Source: Polytrichum commune | Lineage: Eukaryota > Streptophyta > Polytrichopsida > Polytrichales > Polytrichaceae | Assembly (NCBI GenBank): GCA_950295325.1 | Contig: OX485807.1 | Span: 5,646,501-5,710,500 of the forward strand | Length of the DNA stretch: 64,000 nt | Reading direction: 5' to 3' | Shown: positions 15,554-59,623 of the stretch, piece by piece | How the letters are laid out: every line of letters starts with the position of its first letter | How positions within the stretch are numbered: the stretch's first letter is position 1 | Made by a program: the position numbers and the translations under genes | The notes under the pieces: model-generated | The model's database searches: none | What the model saw: only the letters and a program-made list of their open reading frames with translations | What the model was told of the DNA's origin: nothing

Positions 15554-18500
15554 TCAGCCATGAAGGGTCACACTCGAACCAGATGTTGCTACTGGCAGAT
15601 CTGCTGATATAAACTCGGTACCATCAGGTAGAACATCTGCAGATAACGCCTGTTCAAGACATGACACAATCCATACCTTAGAGATCTAAGAACAGCAGAT
15701 TTCCATACCACTAGCCTAACCAGATAGCAATAAATTTTATTTTTATTGTGAGAGTGCACGCAGAAACTGCAGCTCTGTGATGGCATTCTTGACACTATGT
15801 ATTCATTCATCCCCAACAAAATTATTTGTGCAGAACATGAGAGATAATTCCAACCAGCAAGAGACCCTTGTGCGAAGCTGACCTCAATATAAGCAGGATG
15901 CTTGATCAAATAGTCAAGTGCAGCCTCTGCAAGCAACATAAACCTCAAAAGAAATTAGTAAGCTTTCTGACAGTTGAAAAAAGCATCGTGGTGTTTGAAC
16001 ATCCACAATAAGCAGTTTTTGCAGGATTGAAAGTCCTACGCAAGCAGAAACTGAGCTTGGAAGGCTAATCGCTATGGAAAATTGTCATTACAATAAGAGG
16101 GTACAAACCTGAAGGGACTCGTGCAATAAAACCATGTGTGTACCCTTTGCCAACAGAGGAGATATTAGTTCCTGCAAGCAGCCAAGTAATCATTGATTAC
16201 TGGGAAAATCTCAAACACAACAATGAACTATTTGCCCATGGTAGCAACTCTTGGTGGGATCCCTATCAATTTTGGTAACACATACTTTCAAAAAGAAGCA
16301 ATAATTCGAAGCAACCATTTGTGGATCTAATATTTGATCTAAAGCACATCTGAGGAGAAATTATTATTATTGCCGGATCACATGGAATAACAAGGTCTAG
16401 GTTCATTCACCAGACGCTGGTTCAAAAATCCCAGCTGGACCGATAAGCACACCTCTGAACATTCAACCTGGCTAATCCATACAAGTTTGAATTGAAAGAA
16501 ACACTTTGACCACATAACATTGAGTCCGAGTCTAAACCTGCAGTTAGCTGTACAATGGCCGAACTCAGCTCTTTGCCTAAAGCCCTGAAGGACTGTAGCA
16601 TGTGATCTATTGATGCTGGGCTGGTCCCTTCTTTCACTTTAAGAAGTACTGCATGATCAATACCTTCACTAAAAGCCTGCAATAACCAGAATCCATTAAC
16701 CCCTGCAACTTTGACAACAATCACCACTATGAAGCTGATAAGAACAAATATAAAGGTCACCTTTTTAAAGGTAGAGCCAGTTCCTTGCAATGAAAAGGTC
16801 CCAGAAATGGTGTCACTCACACATTAATTGTTCTTCAAATGGCAAAGCATGATAATCACACAAAAAAATGATACTTGAGAGCAACCAATTTTTTTCTCAT
16901 GCGCAGGTGAAAGAGGAACAAATCATTTCAATAGTCTCCAAAAATGTAAGAAAATCTTACATGTCCTCTCCGGAATATTGCTTCCATTTCATCTTCAACT
17001 TCTGTCTCGAAATCCAGCATCACCAATCCCTGGACACAACAACCTTTAATAATTCAGTGACGTCATCCTATCCCAAGTGAACAGTAGAGTTAGTGCATGC
17101 ACTATGCCATCTTAGTGAACTCAATGCAAATGCTAAGAAGGTGATGGTTGCAATGCAACCAGTGAGTTTCTTTGGGAGATATTTACATGGTAGAACGGAA
17201 TAACAAGCTCACGGGCTATTCTCCAGCGCTGTGGATTCTGCATGTACTGATCTAGATCCTCCTTGGTTGAGAACCTCTGAAAAAGTGCATGAGTCACACC
17301 CTCCGGAGTTTTTTTTGCAACTCTGCCTACTCTCATCACCCAGCCAAAAGACTGCACTAGTTAGCATCAACCAACACAAGTGCTCAATTTCTCACCATGG
17401 AAGACTGACCAGAGAGTGGTCATACTTCAAGTTTCAGTGGAAATTGGCAAGCGTGAGTAAAAACAATTTTCCTAAAACCTGAACCCTAAACCCTAAACCC
17501 TAAACAGGAAAGGAAAGAACAAATCACTGATACCAATTTGCAGACCTACATGCAATCACTGCAACACCGGTAGTAAGATGCAAGAATCGTAAGAGCAACT
17601 CCTATGATCACTGTAAAATGGTTTCATCTCTCACTAATAGGCTTTCATGCTCATCACATGGATTTCATGTCCATATGTATCATAATTCTTCATTACCCAC
17701 CGATTCTTGAGAGACAGACAACACTCTAAATTCTTAAGGGTCGGAAGAACTTAAGAGGGTTGCACCTCTCTTAATTATTCGGTGGACAATAAAAAATTTA
17801 AAATCATTTGGGCTTTGTGGGTGGGATGACCATGTAGCCTTGCCCCACAAAACCTAAAAAGTCGATCACCTATTGAGAGAATATTGTTCAGAGTGACGAA
17901 AGGAGTTGCTCTAAGATCAATTACGTAAAGTAAGTAGCACTTCAAAGAGGTTGTTACTGTAAACTTACCCACTGACAGCGAAATAATGCCTTTGACCTGA
18001 TACTGAATAGTGAAGAGAGATTCCAGCATCTCCTTCTCCTGTTCCTCTTTTAAATCGTCTTTCATCCGAAACAGAACCATGTGATCCACCACCTTCCTGC
18101 ATTCACTATGTTCTCTATTATCAGCCACAACTCTAAAACAAATATCTTCAGAGACCCCCATTCGGTCATCCTCCACTTCCGGATGAATTCCATTTACCTC
18201 CTTGCCAGGGGGAGAGGAGAAATTTAAGGACCTTAGATTTATATCCCCTGAGTGGAAAAACCTAATTTGAACTAGTTGCTCCCAACGTTTTCCTGTGGTG
18301 CCTGTCTCTTACAGATGATCAACCTTAAGGCCCAACACAATAGGGCATAAAGAAATCGTTCCGTTATTAACTTGAGAGCATCAACTTGAGTTCGCATTAT
18401 AAGGATTTCCAACAAAAATAGACATTCTTAGAACTGTGACGCTTGCTGCGGTATGCTTCTTAAGCATATCATGGCCCCGAAATTTGTCAATCATATGCAA

Positions 18501-19620: not shown

Positions 19621-20425
19621 AAAGTATCCTACTCTGGGCGAAAACTGGTGTGTCAACACTGGCCTGAAAGAGAACCATAAAGCTAAAGCCCGTTCTGATT
19701 GCTGATTGAGCCTTCTGAGAAGCGTTGACAGATCACCGCCTTCGAACAAATGAGACAAGTTAAATCCTCCATGGACGACATGAGGAATTTAGTTACTCGT
19801 GTTGGAATTTGACGGGGAGCCTCTACTGTAAGGATATATGTTCACAACAGCTTGAGTTGCAAATTATTTCTCTATCCTGTTGTGAACATCAAAAGTATCC
19901 TATCTCAGGACGAGGGTTGGATTGTCAACACCGGCATGAAAGAGAACCATTCTGATTTGTTGCTTAAGCATATTGAGAAATGTTGACAGATCACCGTCTT
20001 CACACAAATGAGACAAGTTAAATCCTTCATAGACAACATGAGAAATTCGGTCACTTGTGTTGGGAACTTAACATGGAGCCTGTACTGTAAGGATATATGT
20101 TGACAACAAATTGAAGTTTAAAATGTTTCTCTATCTTGTTGTGAACATCAAAACTGTCCTACTCTGGACGAGGGTTGGATCGTCGACACTGTCTTGAAAG
20201 AGAGCCATAAAGCTCAAAGCCAATTCTAACTGCTGATTAAGATTTATGAGAAATGTGACAGATCACCTTCTTCGAACAAATGAGATAAGTTAAATCCTTC
20301 ATGGACGACATGACGAATTTGGTTGCTCGTGTTGGAGCTTGACATGGATCCTGTACTGTAAGGATATGTGTTTACAACAGGGTGAAGTTGCAAATTGTTT
20401 CTCTATCCTCGGTTGTGAAAACCAA
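19621..20425. repeat. Three tandem ~265-bp repeats, each ending in a hairpin
   Basis: Units begin near 19621, 19893 and 20155. Shared phrases are TCCTA-TCT-GG-CGA, AAAGAGA-CCATA, TTGACAGATCACC, CGAACAAATGAGA-AAGTTAAATCC and CTGTAAGGATATATGTT. Each copy ends in an inverted repeat, best kept in the first: ATGTTCACAACA ... TGTTGTGAACAT with a ~27-nt loop. One frame of the units reads QMRQVKSSMDDMRNLVTRVG-like helical sequence, interrupted in copy three. A 50-codon open stretch follows at 20419-20568 (contains VIPRDLQSNSLSVQQFADSI). Together they could be remnants of a retroelement or satellite-expanded gene piece. Confidence 0.7.
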
Positions 20426-37382: not shown

Positions 37383-37911
37383 AAGGGCACTTCATCATTA
37401 CTAGCACGGGAATGCAATCTTCACGTATGATGCAAAGGGTCTCCTCCAATGTAGGATTGACATGTGGCAAGCTCAAGCAAAAATGAATTGGTTTTTCTTG
37501 AAACAAAGAACCCTCTGTAATATTTAATAGCTCAATGTAGTTGTTTAAAGTTGATCTAAACCCTAATCAAGGTCAATGAACCCAAATTAGTTTAGTGAGC
37601 TTAAAGTGGGATGAATCATCAACCAACCTATAAGGGCAAGTTCTATTGTAACTATTACCCCCTCAATAGGTGTCAGGATACCAAGCCGAACTTTATGGCC
37701 CAAACACATATTGTTGTTTTTTCTTACCAAATTCCCATTTTTTTCATGGTTGAAAGATTGGCTAGGCCTAAGTGAAAGAACGTTCATATACAACATATGC
37801 TTCTTGTTTTGCAAGATGGCTAGAATTGGCCACCATGCGTTTAAACCCGTGTGATAAATTTATGAACGGTCTTTATAACTTTTAACCAGTTGCAATGGGT
37901 GATCATGCATG

Positions 37912-38561
37912 CATTACTATGTTCATTTCACTTGATTAAGCGCATCTCTCATTCATAAACCACTTTGATGTACTTCTAATTCCACAAGCCTTTTTTACTA
38001 CGTGGGCTTTAAAACCATCTCTCTGTGTTGGTTTATCTTTGTAGATTTCATGTTGTCCTAAGACCCCCCCCCCTACCTACTATGCCGAGATGATGGAATA
38101 ACCATTATAAACTTATTTACCTTCAATAGCATTACTATGTTCATTTCACTTGATTAAGTGCATCTCTCATTCATAAACCACCTTGATGTACTTCTAATTC
38201 CACAAGCCTTTTTTACTACGTGGGCTTTAAAATCATCTCTCTGTGTTGGTTTATCTTTGTGATTTCATGTTGTCCTAAGACCCCCCCCCTACCTACTATG
38301 CCGAGATGATGGAATAACCATTATAAACTTATTTACCTTCAATAGCATTACTATGTTCATTTCACTTGATTAAGTGCATCTCTCATTCATAAACCACCTT
38401 GATGTACTTCTAATTCCACAAGCCTTTTTTACTACGTGGGCTTTAAAACCATCTCTCTCTGCTGGTTTATCTTTGTAGATTTCATGTTGTCCTAAGACCC
38501 CCCCCTACCTACTATGCCGAGATGATGGAATAACCATTATAAACTTATCTACCTTCAATAG
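37912..38561. repeat. 217-bp unit in three tandem copies
   Basis: Copies start at 37912, 38130 and 38346 (CATTACTATGTTCATTTCAC) and are almost identical. They differ mainly in the length of a C run (10, 9 and 7 C). The high identity shows a recent expansion. A diverged version of the TTGATGTACTTCTA-TCC part occurs near 22883. No coding frame. Confidence 0.9.
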
Positions 38562-43165: not shown

Positions 43166-43811
43166 GAGCCACTTAAGACCCATCTACCTCGTACTAGCAA
43201 AACCTCCATCAGGAACCAACCTCACATGGGTCACAAGAGACCTACAGTCATTCTTTAAAAACACACACACACCACAACAACCTATCATCAAGAAAAGAAA
43301 GGCAATTTTAACATGCAAAAAAAATTGGGTCTCGATCACCAAATCAACACCAAACTTTTCCAATAGTCTTCGGAAATTGAAGCAAATGATGGACGCCCAT
43401 ATCACAAAATACTCAAACTCAAATTTTTCTCTTCTAATCGTGCACCCACACCAACCACGATTGTACATTGTGTGGCAATAACAAAAGACACACATGGCCA
43501 CATCTACTATCCCTCTCCAAGAATAAATTCCTCAAAAGCCTTAAAACTGCCATATACAACAATGTTACCCACCAAATCACCAATCCACTAAAACCTTGCA
43601 TATGCATACATCAAGGCTCATCAAAGGCAACAAAAAAGAGCATATGCATACACCCCAACACAACACCATCCCGCCTTGGATTCTAAATTGTATATGCAAC
43701 ACCCCAAGATGCATGTGTCTAGCAAATCTCCGCCCTGACATTTGTACATGTACATAAATGAAGTTGTGTTCAAACTCATAAGGCCAATTTTACCAACACC
43801 ATATGCATAAG

Positions 43812-45019
43812 GGCTAGGGTGAACCAACACCCACACTCGTACCCTCGGGGGATGAAGGCCTCGCGGATGACACTGAAAACTTCATCCTTCTTTATGGGGA
43901 AGCCCCCCCTTAGAAAGGGGGGCAGCCTCCAAGGAAATTTCTGAACCCGACCGAAAACTGCTACCCGCCCCGCCCAACTTCAAAAAAAATATTGCTCTTG
44001 CATTGTTGAAGGCCGCTTGACTACAAATCCCATATTGAGTGCACTTCGCCTTCAAGGTCTAAAATCCAATATATATGTGCACTTCCAATTAGTAAATAAG
44101 CAATTCATTGGGATTTCATTCCGGAAATGAAACCATCAATGAAGCATGTAATCAACTTGGAGGTCAAATAAAATCACAAAATCCTCATTAACATTGAGGT
44201 TATAATTTTTTTGACTTACCATTTGAAATTGTCTTTGTCATTCTAAAATGACACTTAAATTTAGTGTGCTGATTTAGTATGTATATTCTATAATATTTTA
44301 GTAACGCCGCCTACTTTTCACAAGTATTCATAATTAATAAATTAAACTACTGGAATTAATTTATTATAATTACTGGAATTAATTTATTAATTTAATTTCT
44401 GAAATGAATTACTGGAATTAATTGGTTTCAGTTAATTACTGGAATTAATTACTGGAAGTAATTATAATAAATTAATTCCAGTAGTTTAATTTATTAATTA
44501 TGAATACTTGTGAAAAGTAGGCGGCGTTACTAAAATATTATAGAATATACATACTAAATCAGCACACTAAATTTAAGTGTCATTTTAGAATGACAAAGAC
44601 AATTTCAAATGGTAAGTCAAAAAAATTATAACCTCAATGTTAATGAGGATTTTGTGATTTTATTTGACCTCCAAGTTGATTACATGCTTCATTGATGGTT
44701 TCATTTCCGGAATGAAATCCCAATGAATTGCTTATTTACTAATTGGAAGTGCACATATATATTGGATTTTAGACCTTGAAGGTGAAGTGCACTCAATATG
44801 GGATTTGTAGTCAAGCGGCCTTCAACAATGCAAGAGCAATATTTTTATTGAAGTTGGGCAGGGCGGGTAGCAGTTTTCGGTCGGGTTCAGAAATTTCCTT
44901 GGAGGCTGCCCCCCTTTCTAAGGGGGGGCTTCCCCATAAAGAAGGATGAAGTTTTCAGTGTCATCCGCGAGGCCTTCATCCCCCGAGGGTACGAGTGTGG
45001 GTGTTGGTTCACCCTAGCC
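43812..45019. mobile_element. Foldback MULE-like non-autonomous element, 563-bp inverted arms
   Basis: Left arm 43812-44374 and right arm 44457-45019 are reverse complements of equal length with only about three or four mismatches noticed; an 82-nt AT-rich loop (repeated ATTACTGGAATTAATT) separates them. The ends are GGCTAGGGTGAACC / GGTTCACCCTAGCC. A perfect 9-bp direct repeat ATGCATAAG flanks the element at 43803-43811 and 45020-45028. Long inverted arms with a 9-bp target duplication are typical of Mutator-like elements; no transposase is encoded, so a relative must move it. Each arm carries a small C7/G6 hairpin (about 43893-43922). Near identity of arms and target duplication suggests a young insertion. 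Confidence 0.9.
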
Positions 45020-45028
45020 ATGCATAAG

Positions 45029-56089: not shown

Positions 56090-57304
56090 GCTTATCTAGA
56101 GGCTGTTGTAGAACCCAAGGCGTGGGCGGGGGGGAAGGCGGATGAAGAAACGTGGGACGTCCATTCGTCAGTGTCCGAGGGGGGGCGGCGGAAATAGGGG
56201 AAGAAGAGGGGGTGTGGGCGCGGTGGAAGGGGGCGAGGCGGGCAGCGGGAATAGGGGGCCCGCGGAGCTAGGGTTTGCGGGATGCCGTGGGGGAAGCCAG
56301 GGAAGAATCTCCAGCTCGGACGCCATAGCCAGAGGTTGGGTGCCCATGTGGTGTTGTGCTTTCCACGACGACGCAGCGAGCGATCGCAGGTCAGCAACCC
56401 TTGCTCAGGTCAGCAACCCTTGCTCCCAGTTTGGTGAAATTCGCGGAGGACGTGGAACCACCCCTCCCGCGATCTTTGTCCGCTTGCTGCATTGCATGCA
56501 CGTTGGCTTCGAGAGTCGCCGGAGAGAGGGCCTCGACGCTGCGTGCCTGCACCCTCCCCTCCCCTCTCCCCTGCCCTGCTTCCGTCCGTCCTTCCTGGGG
56601 TGGGGTTCAGTTGATGAGTCGTCACTCCGTCGACCTGCCTTCTTGTCCGCTGGTCTGCTCGATCACATGCTCGCTGGCCGCTCAGCCTTGGACGCTTTTG
56701 TTTGGCACACAACCCCCCTCCAGTGTTCGGGGAGGGAAAGGAAAAAAAAGGAAATAAAGTGTCGGCAGGGCCGAGCCGAGCCGCCGCCGTGTCATCGACC
56801 ATTCCCCCTCCTGTTTTGCGGAGTGCTCTATGGAGATTGTGTCCTCCGCTTTTTGATTTTATAGCCGATTTGATTGATTGATTGATTGAGTGAGTGAGTG
56901 AGTGAATGAGCGAGGGAAAAGAGCGATTTTGATCAGTAGGTATGCGGGTGGGTGGGGGGGAGGGGGTGGGAGGGTTGCAAGCTTGCTATGGGGATTCGAT
57001 GTGTTGGTGATGATGCGTGAGGAGGCGAACAGCAGCCGTGAGGATGGTGAGAGGAGGGTGGGAGGGATTATGATGAGCTCTTGTGCTTGTGCCCTTGTGC
57101 TTGTGATGTGATGCTGCTGTCATCGCACAATGTGTTCAGTGATTTAGTGGTGCGTAGTAGTCTCACTACGCAGGTTGTATTGTGTGTAACTCATGATGGT
57201 GGTAGGAGGAGCGCCCGCGCGCTGAGAGTATCGGAGTAGTAGGGGTTTGAGGGGAGGAGGTTGGCGTGGACGCACGCATTTTAGCAAGGGGCTACGGAGG
57301 AGCA
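56090..57304 (+). promoter_or_regulatory. GC-rich upstream/leader region of the GBF-type bZIP gene
   Basis: Composition changes from AT-rich to strongly GC-rich at about 56100 and stays so up to the bZIP start codon, as expected for promoter plus 5' leader. It contains a 20-bp direct duplication (GGTCAGCAACCCTTGCTC, 56388-56427), a GATT/GAGT tract near 56868-56905 and several ATGs that would form short upstream ORFs. A TTTTAG|CAAG site just before the start codon (about 57280) could be a leader-intron acceptor. No TATA box or start site was assigned. A 240-codon frame (56142-56864) is probably a composition artefact. Confidence 0.45.
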
Positions 57305-59623
57305 ATGGGGGCAGCAGGGGAGAGCACCACTCCGCCAGCAGCAGCATCCTCCAAGGCTACGAAACCCTCCACACCAACAACACCAGCGACCACCACAGCA
57401 TCATCAGCACCTACACCCGCTTCGGGGTCGGCTTCTGCACCAGTTCTTCATCAAGAGGCATCCTCACAACAGCAACAGCAACAGCAAGCGGCAGCGGCAG
57501 CCGCGGTCGCAGGGACTCCAGGGTACAATGAATGGGCCGCGGCTTTCCAAGCCTACTATCAAGCGGGGGCACAGCCACCGGCAGGGTTCCCGCATCCTTA
57601 CATGTGGGCAGGGCAGCCGATGATGCCACCCTACGGCGGGCCACATCCGACATATGGTGCCATGTATCCGCCTGGGGCAATGTACGCGCACCCTATGTAT
57701 GGGCAGTATGCCGGCACTCCAACAGCGCAGCAGGGGGGAGGAGAACCAATGGTGATGGGAGGGGAGCAGACTGAAACCAAACCTTCTGGAAACTTGGAGG
57801 CAGCAGGGAAGCAAACCCCTTTGAAGAGATCCAAGGGGAGAAGGGGTAGTTTGCAGTTGATGAAAGTGAGTGAGAGTGGGGGGAAACGGAATGGAGTTTC
57901 ACATAGCAGCAATGGCGATGACAACGAGAACGAGAACGAAACTGGGAGTGATGGGTCCACGGAAGGTAGCCGTGATGAGAATGAGCAAAATTTAATGCCC
58001 AAAAGGAGGTTCGAGCTCATGGCCATGGAGGCTGGTGCGGGAACCGGGGGTGGAGGTGGAGCTTACATGGCTCCTCCAGTGGGTGGTGTTGTTCCCGGAA
58101 CCCCAGCTTCAGGGCTTCAAGGAGGAGGAGGAGGAGGAAGTTTGGACATGAGTTTGGACTATTGGAGTGCAGGATCAGTTCCTGCCGCGAAGGCTGCAAA
58201 GCAACACTCCGGTAGCCCTACGACTACTGCTCCTCAAACGGAGCTTTGGCTGCAGGATGAGCGGGAGTTGAAGCGGCAGAGAAGGAAGCAAGCCAATAGG
58301 GAGTCCGCCCGGCGGTCTAGGTTGCGGAAACAGGCGGAGTGTGAGGAGCTGGAAACTCGAGTTGACACTTTGACGGTGGAGAATGTGACGTTGCGTGCAG
58401 AATTGACGCGGGTGACGGAAGAGTGCAAGAGATTACAGGTTGAAAATGGCAGCTTGATGCATCAGCTGCGTAATAACCCGCAACCTGGCTCCGGGGTGCA
58501 AGCAGTAGTAACCCCTGCTCAAGCAGCGCCAGCAGCAGCAGCCCCACCCAAAGAGACCATCGACACCGACAAGGAAATGGTAGACGCTTCAAACGATGGC
58601 AATGGGAACTTTCCGTTGAAAGAAGACAAGCCTTCCGGTAAGTACGAGTCTCGTGATGTCGGACCTCTATATGCCGTGTGTGTGTGATGTTTCCTGGATG
58701 TTTTATATTTTGGGTTGTTTACTGAACTGTGATTGTTGACAGCCATTGGTCGATCGAGCATGCCCTAGAGCGAGCTCACGGGGACCGAGGTAAGGGTGTG
58801 GCTACGGACAGGCGTTTGCCAGGATGCGGTTGCACTTCTCGACACATATGTTTTGTAGTCCACATCGTAACTGCTTGTAAATGCAAGGGAATATGCAAGT
58901 AGATTGATTTTTGTGAGCACATTTTTATAGTTGGAACTACCTCTGTTTTTGTGAGCTGTTGAGTCCATCATGGATGGATAGCAACTTCTCATGACCAGAG
59001 GTCTAAAGTCTGTCCTGCAAGATGGGCAGCATTCAAGAACTGAATGAACTTGCTTGAAATCACCTCGTGATGAGAATACTAGTATGTGTCTCACATTGTT
59101 AGGAGGGACTTGTTGGCCCTTTGTTATTATCATAGGAAGAGTGATTGGCGAATGGTGCACTGCAACGTTGGTTCGAACTTTGTCTATGCATGGTGCTTTT
59201 CCCCATGTTGCAGAAGCCCATCCTTTGCTCTTGGACCATTGTCTATTGTGATTCTCTTAGGGAAGTTTTTGTTCTGTTTGCTACTTGTTGATTGCATGCC
59301 TCAGTTCATATAATCTGCTGTAATATTACAAATGGTAACAGTTTTCAAAAGATGTGTTTCCAGAACAACCGATCTTGCAATTTAGTCCAGTGATGGCCTA
59401 TTATCTGATCCTGCTTATGTTCAAACTTTCAGCTTGGCCATGTTGTACCTGAGTACAAATTCTGGAATTGAGTCATTGTATATCTGTGACGCACCTGAAT
59501 GTTTATGATTCATTGTAGACCAAAATTATTAGCAAGGAACAATGCTATGTAAATACAGAAGGGATATGTTCAGGGATGGATGCAGGCTTGAAATCTGGAG
59601 ATGAGCAAAGTGCAGCTTCTTAG
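57305..59623 (+). CDS. G-group bZIP transcription factor (G-box binding factor, GBF type)
   Basis: Exon 1 is 57305-58637; a GTAAGT donor at 58638 carries one base over. The best terminal exon is 59586-59623 (acceptor GGATGCAG), adding GLKSGDEQSAAS and a stop, for 456 aa. I chose the first ATG, because MGAAGEST fits the MG-x-xE start of GBFs. The N-terminal mosaic region includes a poly-Gln/Ala run, YNEWAAAFQAYYQ and the Pro/Tyr/Gly-rich PPYGGPHPTYGAMYPPGAMY block typical of group G. A Ser/Asn/Glu acidic stretch follows. The bZIP lies at about residues 318-385: KRQRRKQANRESARRSRLRK has the invariant N-x7-R (N331), followed by a leucine zipper (LETRVDTL, LRAEL, LQVEN). Such proteins homo- or heterodimerise and bind CACGTG-core elements in the nucleus. 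Most angiosperm GBFs have many introns; here one exon encodes nearly all. Other 3' ends are possible: reading through gives KYESRDVGPLYAVCV; an acceptor at 58742 gives AIGRSSMP; a copied last exon lies at 60334. Confidence 0.88.

Follow-up and report, generated by a model that had tools for sequence, protein, structure and literature searches.

Foldback elements of Arabidopsis, known as FARE, are reportedly the subject of a study by Windsor and Waddell in 2000. In the available portions of later papers, FARE are presented as foldback elements of plants whose long repeats form palindromes and which now count among the Mutator-like elements (MULEs) (PMC4486113), and as containing a MULE-domain transposase (PMC3169594). 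Other systems also come close to the one described here. The modular foldback MULEs of Medicago truncatula, MuTAnT, have 9-nt target duplications and a related transposase copy and were studied by comparison with empty sites (PMC4486113). Tm1, a Mutator/Foldback element of root-knot nematodes, has arms like those of Drosophila FB, 9-bp duplications, and one transposase-bearing copy among many noncoding ones (PMC3169594). For Galileo of Drosophila, three processes have been described or proposed: arm extension in which an internal sequence is copied to the opposite end, exchange among subfamilies, and lengthening of the arms by other transposable elements (PMC3573991, PMC4168063). Foldback MULEs (FARE, MuTAnT, Tm1), plant MULEs with multiple TIRs, and arm extension of the Galileo type are, going by the accessible parts of these sources, already published (PMC4486113, PMC3169594, PMC3310237, PMC3573991, PMC4168063). 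In the literature examined, the origin and near-identity of foldback arms that are hundreds of bases long are discussed mainly for Galileo.

Here, we analyze a foldback element in a 64,000-nucleotide stretch of Polytrichum commune DNA (C5:5646501-5710500), hereafter the window. Its kind is known, but the construction of its arms is unusually readable. The likeness to FARE, that is, a plant foldback element with long palindromic repeats, is one of description only. Tm1 arms carry varying numbers of a ~14-bp motif, with short asymmetric ends outside the inverted repeat (PMC3169594, in part), whereas in the window element tandem repeats were found only at the center (44332-44477), and the ends are fully inverted. 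Its arms are not built of tandem direct repeats in the style of Tm1 or Drosophila FB, and it is therefore a foldback element by shape only. Unlike MuTAnT, which targets (TA)n microsatellites according to the portion of the paper available (PMC4486113), the window copy is not flanked by TA repeats, and no (TA)n insertion was found in its flanks or in the joined flanks of the 27 copies examined. Galileo belongs to the P superfamily, and its duplications measure 7 or 8 bp. Matching duplications are absent from its 12 two-subfamily chimeras in D. mojavensis (PMC3573991, PMC4168063, both in part) but present, at 9 bp, in most of the composites described below. Plant MULEs with multiple long TIRs have tandem TIR duplications, and the accessible part of that source mentions no second foldback family inside the arms (PMC3310237). 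Among papers screened by title and the opening of the abstract, with most subscription papers beyond reach, we found no description of the window family, and for foldback Mutator elements of mosses nothing beyond the Medicago work.

Structure of the element

The element is a noncoding, near-perfect palindrome of 1,208 bp. T1 refers below to its own type of terminus and T2 to that of a second foldback family. The features are as follows.

43803 to 43811, plus strand: left target-site duplication, ATGCATAAG
43812 to 45019, no strand: foldback (palindromic) MULE-type element, 1,208 bp
43812 to 43917, plus strand: left T1 segment, ~106 bp, starting with GGCTAGGGTGAACC; 94% match over bp 1-98 to L021, a 7.6-kb MULE carrier, at its transposase-5' end
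43918 to 44332, plus strand: left core segment, homologous to T2 at 93% (arm positions 52-464; T2 ends, GGCGGACATTAAG; reference copy, L027)
44333 to 44498, no strand: A+T-rich center in which short AATTACTGGAATTAATT-like repeats occur; it contains the 82-bp spacer (44375-44456) that separates the two 563-bp arms
44499 to 44913, minus strand: right core segment, inverted counterpart of 43918-44332; T2 homology 52-464, 93%
44914 to 45019, minus strand: right T1 segment, inverted counterpart of 43812-43917
45020 to 45028, plus strand: right target-site duplication, ATGCATAAG

The first-pass annotation had described a 1.2-kb foldback with near-identical 563-bp arms and a perfect 9-bp duplication, nearly all of it arm, and we confirm this description. 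The two 563-bp arms, 43812-44374 and 44457-45019, are mismatched at three sites only (43971, 43984, and 44048), and ATGCATAAG is perfect on both sides. Arms make up 2 x 563 of the 1,208 bp or, in a wider inverted-repeat pairing, 2 x 586 nt at 98% identity with 36 nt in between, which is the proportion of a foldback element. The predicted fold of the element strand reaches -1057 kcal/mol with 561 arm-to-arm pairs, far stronger than that of five mononucleotide shuffles (-265 to -299 kcal/mol). Within the window, the exact terminus GGCTAGGGTGAACC occurs at the two element ends only, with variants of two or three mismatches at three further places. No second copy was detected in the window by blastn (E <= 1e-3), and no Rfam family reached its gathering score anywhere in it.

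Copy number, target-site duplications, and empty sites

The genome searched comprises 407.8 Mb in 64 contigs. The 35-bp terminus occurs, with up to three mismatches, at 68 + 73 places, and the 20-bp terminus, with up to one mismatch, at 98 + 92 = 190 places; reversed controls gave 0 + 0 in both searches. Among the 100 of these 190 termini that were listed, at least 33 pairs stand head to head, 867 to 1,600 bp apart. The second terminus type, T2 (GGCGGACATTAAGTTC), occurs at 111 + 112 places (control, 0 + 2), and the ten T2 elements that we fetched have their core in common with the window element but different ends.

From 47 foldback loci (46 plus the window), we kept 35 two-ended copies. The 12 left out were L009 to L015, L018, L019, and L020, for which the fetched sequence showed no clear second end; L047, whose flanks are identical to those of L041; and L005, a nested composite. 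One further element, L067, is not among the 35 and was used only for reading carriers and duplications and for the analysis of joints. A perfect 9-bp duplication lies within three bases of the ends in 27 of the 35 kept copies, compared with none of 1,190 mismatched flank pairs, although 27/35 is not a genome-wide rate because copies were selected via best matches and paired termini. The remaining eight are L002, L003, L004, L033, L042, L025, L029, and L031; in L004, L033, L025, and L031, the duplication matches at wider offsets or over 8 bp. It can be read as 10 bp in L001, L008, and L038.

The first-pass annotation had proposed counting other copies and comparing empty sites. The copies exist, as the 190 termini attest, and empty sites were found for a sibling, L001, but not for the window copy in this assembly. 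When the joined flanks of L001, L006, L007, and L008 were searched as one query, all 40 scored places (from 2,465 first-look candidates) belonged to L001, and all 40 run unbroken over the insertion point at 99%. Two of these sites, L056 and L057, were read directly; each has the target once, and the length of the duplication can be taken as 9 or 10 bp. The window element sits in unique DNA, with joined flanks that match only themselves (2/2).

L041 and L047, which lie 0.38 Mb apart on C6, have identical flanking bases and duplication at both ends, as would be expected of a segmental duplication carrying the element. L002, L006, and L008 have related sequence in or beside one another's flanks (82-98% over 38-125 bp), so that an empty form of the L002 site may be visible in the flank of L008. 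The composite L005 (L005:201-1910) spans 1,710 bp, is flanked by a perfect CAATAAGTA duplication, and holds a further internal palindrome (296-714), located between the core and the T1 end. L067 (L067:111-4476) is a 4,366-bp T1-ended element with 9-bp duplication readings of CAAGAAAAG or AAGAAAAGG; a long T2 match follows T1 on the left arm, whereas on the right arm T1 is accompanied by T2-like terminal bases alone. The termini at C4:1193912 and C4:1215949 are 22 kb apart, with foldback pieces at the ends read.

MULE carriers and mode of movement

The MULE-domain profile PF10551 matches at least 142 places in the genome, with 150 of 271 candidates scored. One match (C2:38500180-38500431) falls inside L021, a 7,590-bp element with window-type ends and the duplication TCCATAGCC, whose longest reading is 10 bp. 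Compared with the window element, the ends of L021 match over bp 1-98 at 94% and over bp 1-106 at 88%, and its transposase region is broken by stops. A protein search with an L021 frame reached further carriers: L049 (7,391 bp; GTGGAAGGG, longest reading 9 bp), L052 (6,922 bp; CAAGACGTG, 11 bp), and L053 (7,720 bp; AGTGTTGAG, 10 bp). The ends of these three are related to the window type, but diverged. In L049, PF10551 scores 32.8 bits (cutoff, 27.6) in an open frame of 530 aa. A MULE transposase would have a DDE catalytic triad and a zinc finger; SWIM appeared only below the cutoff (E = 0.11), and putative catalytic residues were picked by eye only. One T1 end is kept in L050 and in a further carrier on C1, the other end of the latter being damaged, and a second end of L054 was not found in the stretches examined. 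None of the carriers combines an intact transposase with exactly the ends of the window element, and we found no transposase carrier with T2 ends.

Two candidates were rejected. L022, a MULE domain ~4 kb from L006, is a mere neighbor, as the stretch read has only the terminus of L006 and no partner. L055 is bounded by T2 termini, but no 9-mers match directly at its two ends, tblastn gave no match to 10 frames from MULEs of this genome, and its 140-aa plus-strand frame has no Pfam match.

L049 also contains a second, convergent open frame of 221 aa (L049:5333-5998, minus strand) with C2H2-like spacing by eye and no Pfam match up to E = 10, and L021 has a homologous stretch. The convergent pair recalls the two convergent genes of MuDR.

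We conclude, with a probability of about 0.9, that the window element is a nonautonomous foldback element of a Mutator-like family and that a MULE transposase supplied from elsewhere inserted it. This reading rests on the multicopy family, the 9-bp duplications, the empty sites of a sibling, and the MULE-domain carriers, whose ends are of the same or a related type. The first-pass suggestion of Mutator-like mobilization is supported by the same evidence. The target-site duplication has the ~9 bp of MULEs both in the window (ATGCATAAG) and in 27 of 35 copies, and termini common with a MULE-domain element were found through L021, albeit one whose transposase region has stops. The transposase of such carriers would recognize T1 ends and cut and paste the window element; mobilization by this particular clade of carriers is what we infer from the shared ends. 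Counted against it, the best T1 carrier, L021, is broken, and L049 is open but has diverged ends.

Composite arms

Joints were typed by comparing copies with the transposase-side end of L021 (T1b) and with the T2 arm of L027. Judged by these alignments, the window arms are composite, and their joint is the same on both sides: about 106 bp of one MULE end type give way to sequence from a second foldback family. In group A (the window copy, L001 to L004, and L006 to L008), T1 runs to ~98/99 and T2 follows from 52/53, with the joint at the same base on both arms in all eight copies. Group C (L016, L033, L039, L040, L041, L043, and L067) has T1 1-138 on both arms in all seven. By local alignment, L016 and L033 are the only group C copies in which the match extends to the first T2 base on both arms, and the right arms of L043 and L067 gave no T2 match; on direct inspection, T1b bases are followed by T2-like terminal bases at position 126-146 in all 14 arms, with zero to two mismatches. 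In group D, T1 runs to 92-94; in L044 and L045, both arms continue with T2 from 141, and in L017 one arm does so and T2 is absent from the other. The same joint is accordingly present on both arms in 8/8 copies of group A, 7/7 of group C, and 2/3 of group D. The eight copies of group B have T1 to ~97 and T2 from 53 to 79, a joint that is not resolved, since the T2 start differs between arms in five of the eight.

Core identity to T2 is 88-94% in groups A and D and 70-83% in groups B and C. This split points to at least two T2 lineages, and the groups do not form a simple series. At 31 sites inside the TIR that differ between the two ends of L021, group C arms score 6-8 for T1a and 15-18 for T1b. 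These sites are not clean markers, however, since L051, itself a T1a end, gives scores of 14 and 14, and the scores of the window arms are 6 and 7. An origin of both arms from one MULE end can be read only in group C, and it rests on a few bases past the shared TIR.

A plausible route, to which we give even odds at most, is that T2 foldback sequence was joined to one T1 MULE end, lengthening the arms, and that the joined T1 and T2 were then copied as a whole onto the opposite arm, either through gene conversion between the arms or through snap-back synthesis during gap repair. A comparable extension has been proposed for Galileo (PMC3573991, PMC4168063). The same copying may have kept the arms alike since then. 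More tentatively, and at somewhat less than even odds, the process may have resembled Russian dolls: a T2 foldback would land in a T1 MULE end, and its palindrome would prime copying of the T1 end to the far side. The outcome would be a longer symmetric element moved by the T1 transposase, and later deletions would be copied from arm to arm. Joint types A, C, D, and perhaps B would be products of such events, with at least two T2 lineages at the start.

Other origins of the palindrome fare less well. The T1 termini are those of MULE carriers, and an ordinary internal deletion could have removed the interior of such a MULE and left the two original ends and subterminal DNA as arms. We regard this as improbable: the TIR of L021 is only 127 bp, blastn finds no L021 match to arm sequence past bp 106, and both arms of group C carry bases of the same MULE end (T1b) rather than one of each. 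This last argument rests on relatives, since the T1 part of the window element ends before the diagnostic bases. Near-perfect palindromes can also arise by head-to-head joining, segmental inverted duplication, or assembly artifact, as a matter of general knowledge. For the family, such an origin without transposition is refuted by the 190 termini, the close head-to-head pairs among the 100 listed, the empty sites of a sibling, and 9-bp duplications at a frequency that mismatched flanks never approached, and for the window copy we consider it exceedingly improbable. Finally, the predicted hairpin could suggest that the element is retained because its RNA yields small RNAs that silence the family, but a long hairpin follows from the structure alone, and we hold this to be quite improbable.

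Arm identity and age

The first-pass annotation had called the element young. Mean arm distances within and between copies are 0.0126 and 0.0295 in group A, 0.0392 and 0.0637 in T2, 0.0207 and 0.0370 in group B, 0.0619 and 0.0744 in group C (raised by L043), and 0.0235 and 0.0373 in group D (over 85 bp only). The two arms are mutual nearest neighbors in 18 of 35 copies (A, 7/8; T2, 4/10; B, 2/8; C, 4/6; D, 1/3), so that any homogenization is partial. We then counted private changes in 31 copies, dropping L043 and three group D copies. Changes on both arms of one copy numbered 19 in group A (8 copies), 13 in T2 (10), 8 in group B (8), and 6 in group C (5), and those on one arm numbered 30, 96, 48, and 26, respectively. 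Among 1,000 random pairings, in which true pairs were possible, the both-arm counts were reached 0 times in A, T2, and B and 61 times in C. The window copy contributes one both-arm change. In three of the four groups, these changes support arm-to-arm copying or rebirth as a perfect palindrome, in either case incomplete.

An alternative concerns this step and not the identity of the element: near-identity of the arms would simply reflect the recent birth of each copy from a master that was a perfect palindrome, neither arm having been copied onto the other thereafter. The window arms, which differ at only 3 of 563 sites, agree with it, as do the many T2 and B copies with an arm closer to that of another copy than to its own partner and the failure of group C to rise clearly above chance. 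A single master, however, predicts equal distances within and between copies, which the values of group A contradict, and the both-arm changes exceed random pairing in A, T2, and B. We therefore think recent birth unlikely as the whole explanation; with several masters, each made perfectly palindromic anew, the pattern would be the one that copying leaves.

Because the arms of one copy share private changes, near-identical arms are no proof of youth, and we rejected dating by arm divergence. The nearest sibling arm nevertheless differs from the window arm by 1.3% over the outer 521 bp, which still suggests that the window copy is fairly recent, but arm identity is no clock. Caution is warranted wherever arm identity of foldback elements serves as an age estimate. 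With many copies, readable symmetric joints, and intact duplications, sequencing of relatives could separate nested insertion, snap-back copying, and arm conversion.

Other features of the window and genome

Elsewhere in the window, a single open frame of 478 codons (57251-58687) has bZIP and MFMR (G-box binding protein) domains, and an open frame at 17775-18308 (minus strand) has a Dabb (stress-responsive A/B barrel) match just below the cutoff (24.7 versus 25 bits). There are two tandem arrays, one of 258-bp units in 2.6 copies (19716-20419) and one of 216-bp units in 3.0 copies with 97% matches (37911-38561). In the genome at large, two 400-bp contig ends each contain 57 copies of the telomere repeat TTTAGGG/CCCTAAA.
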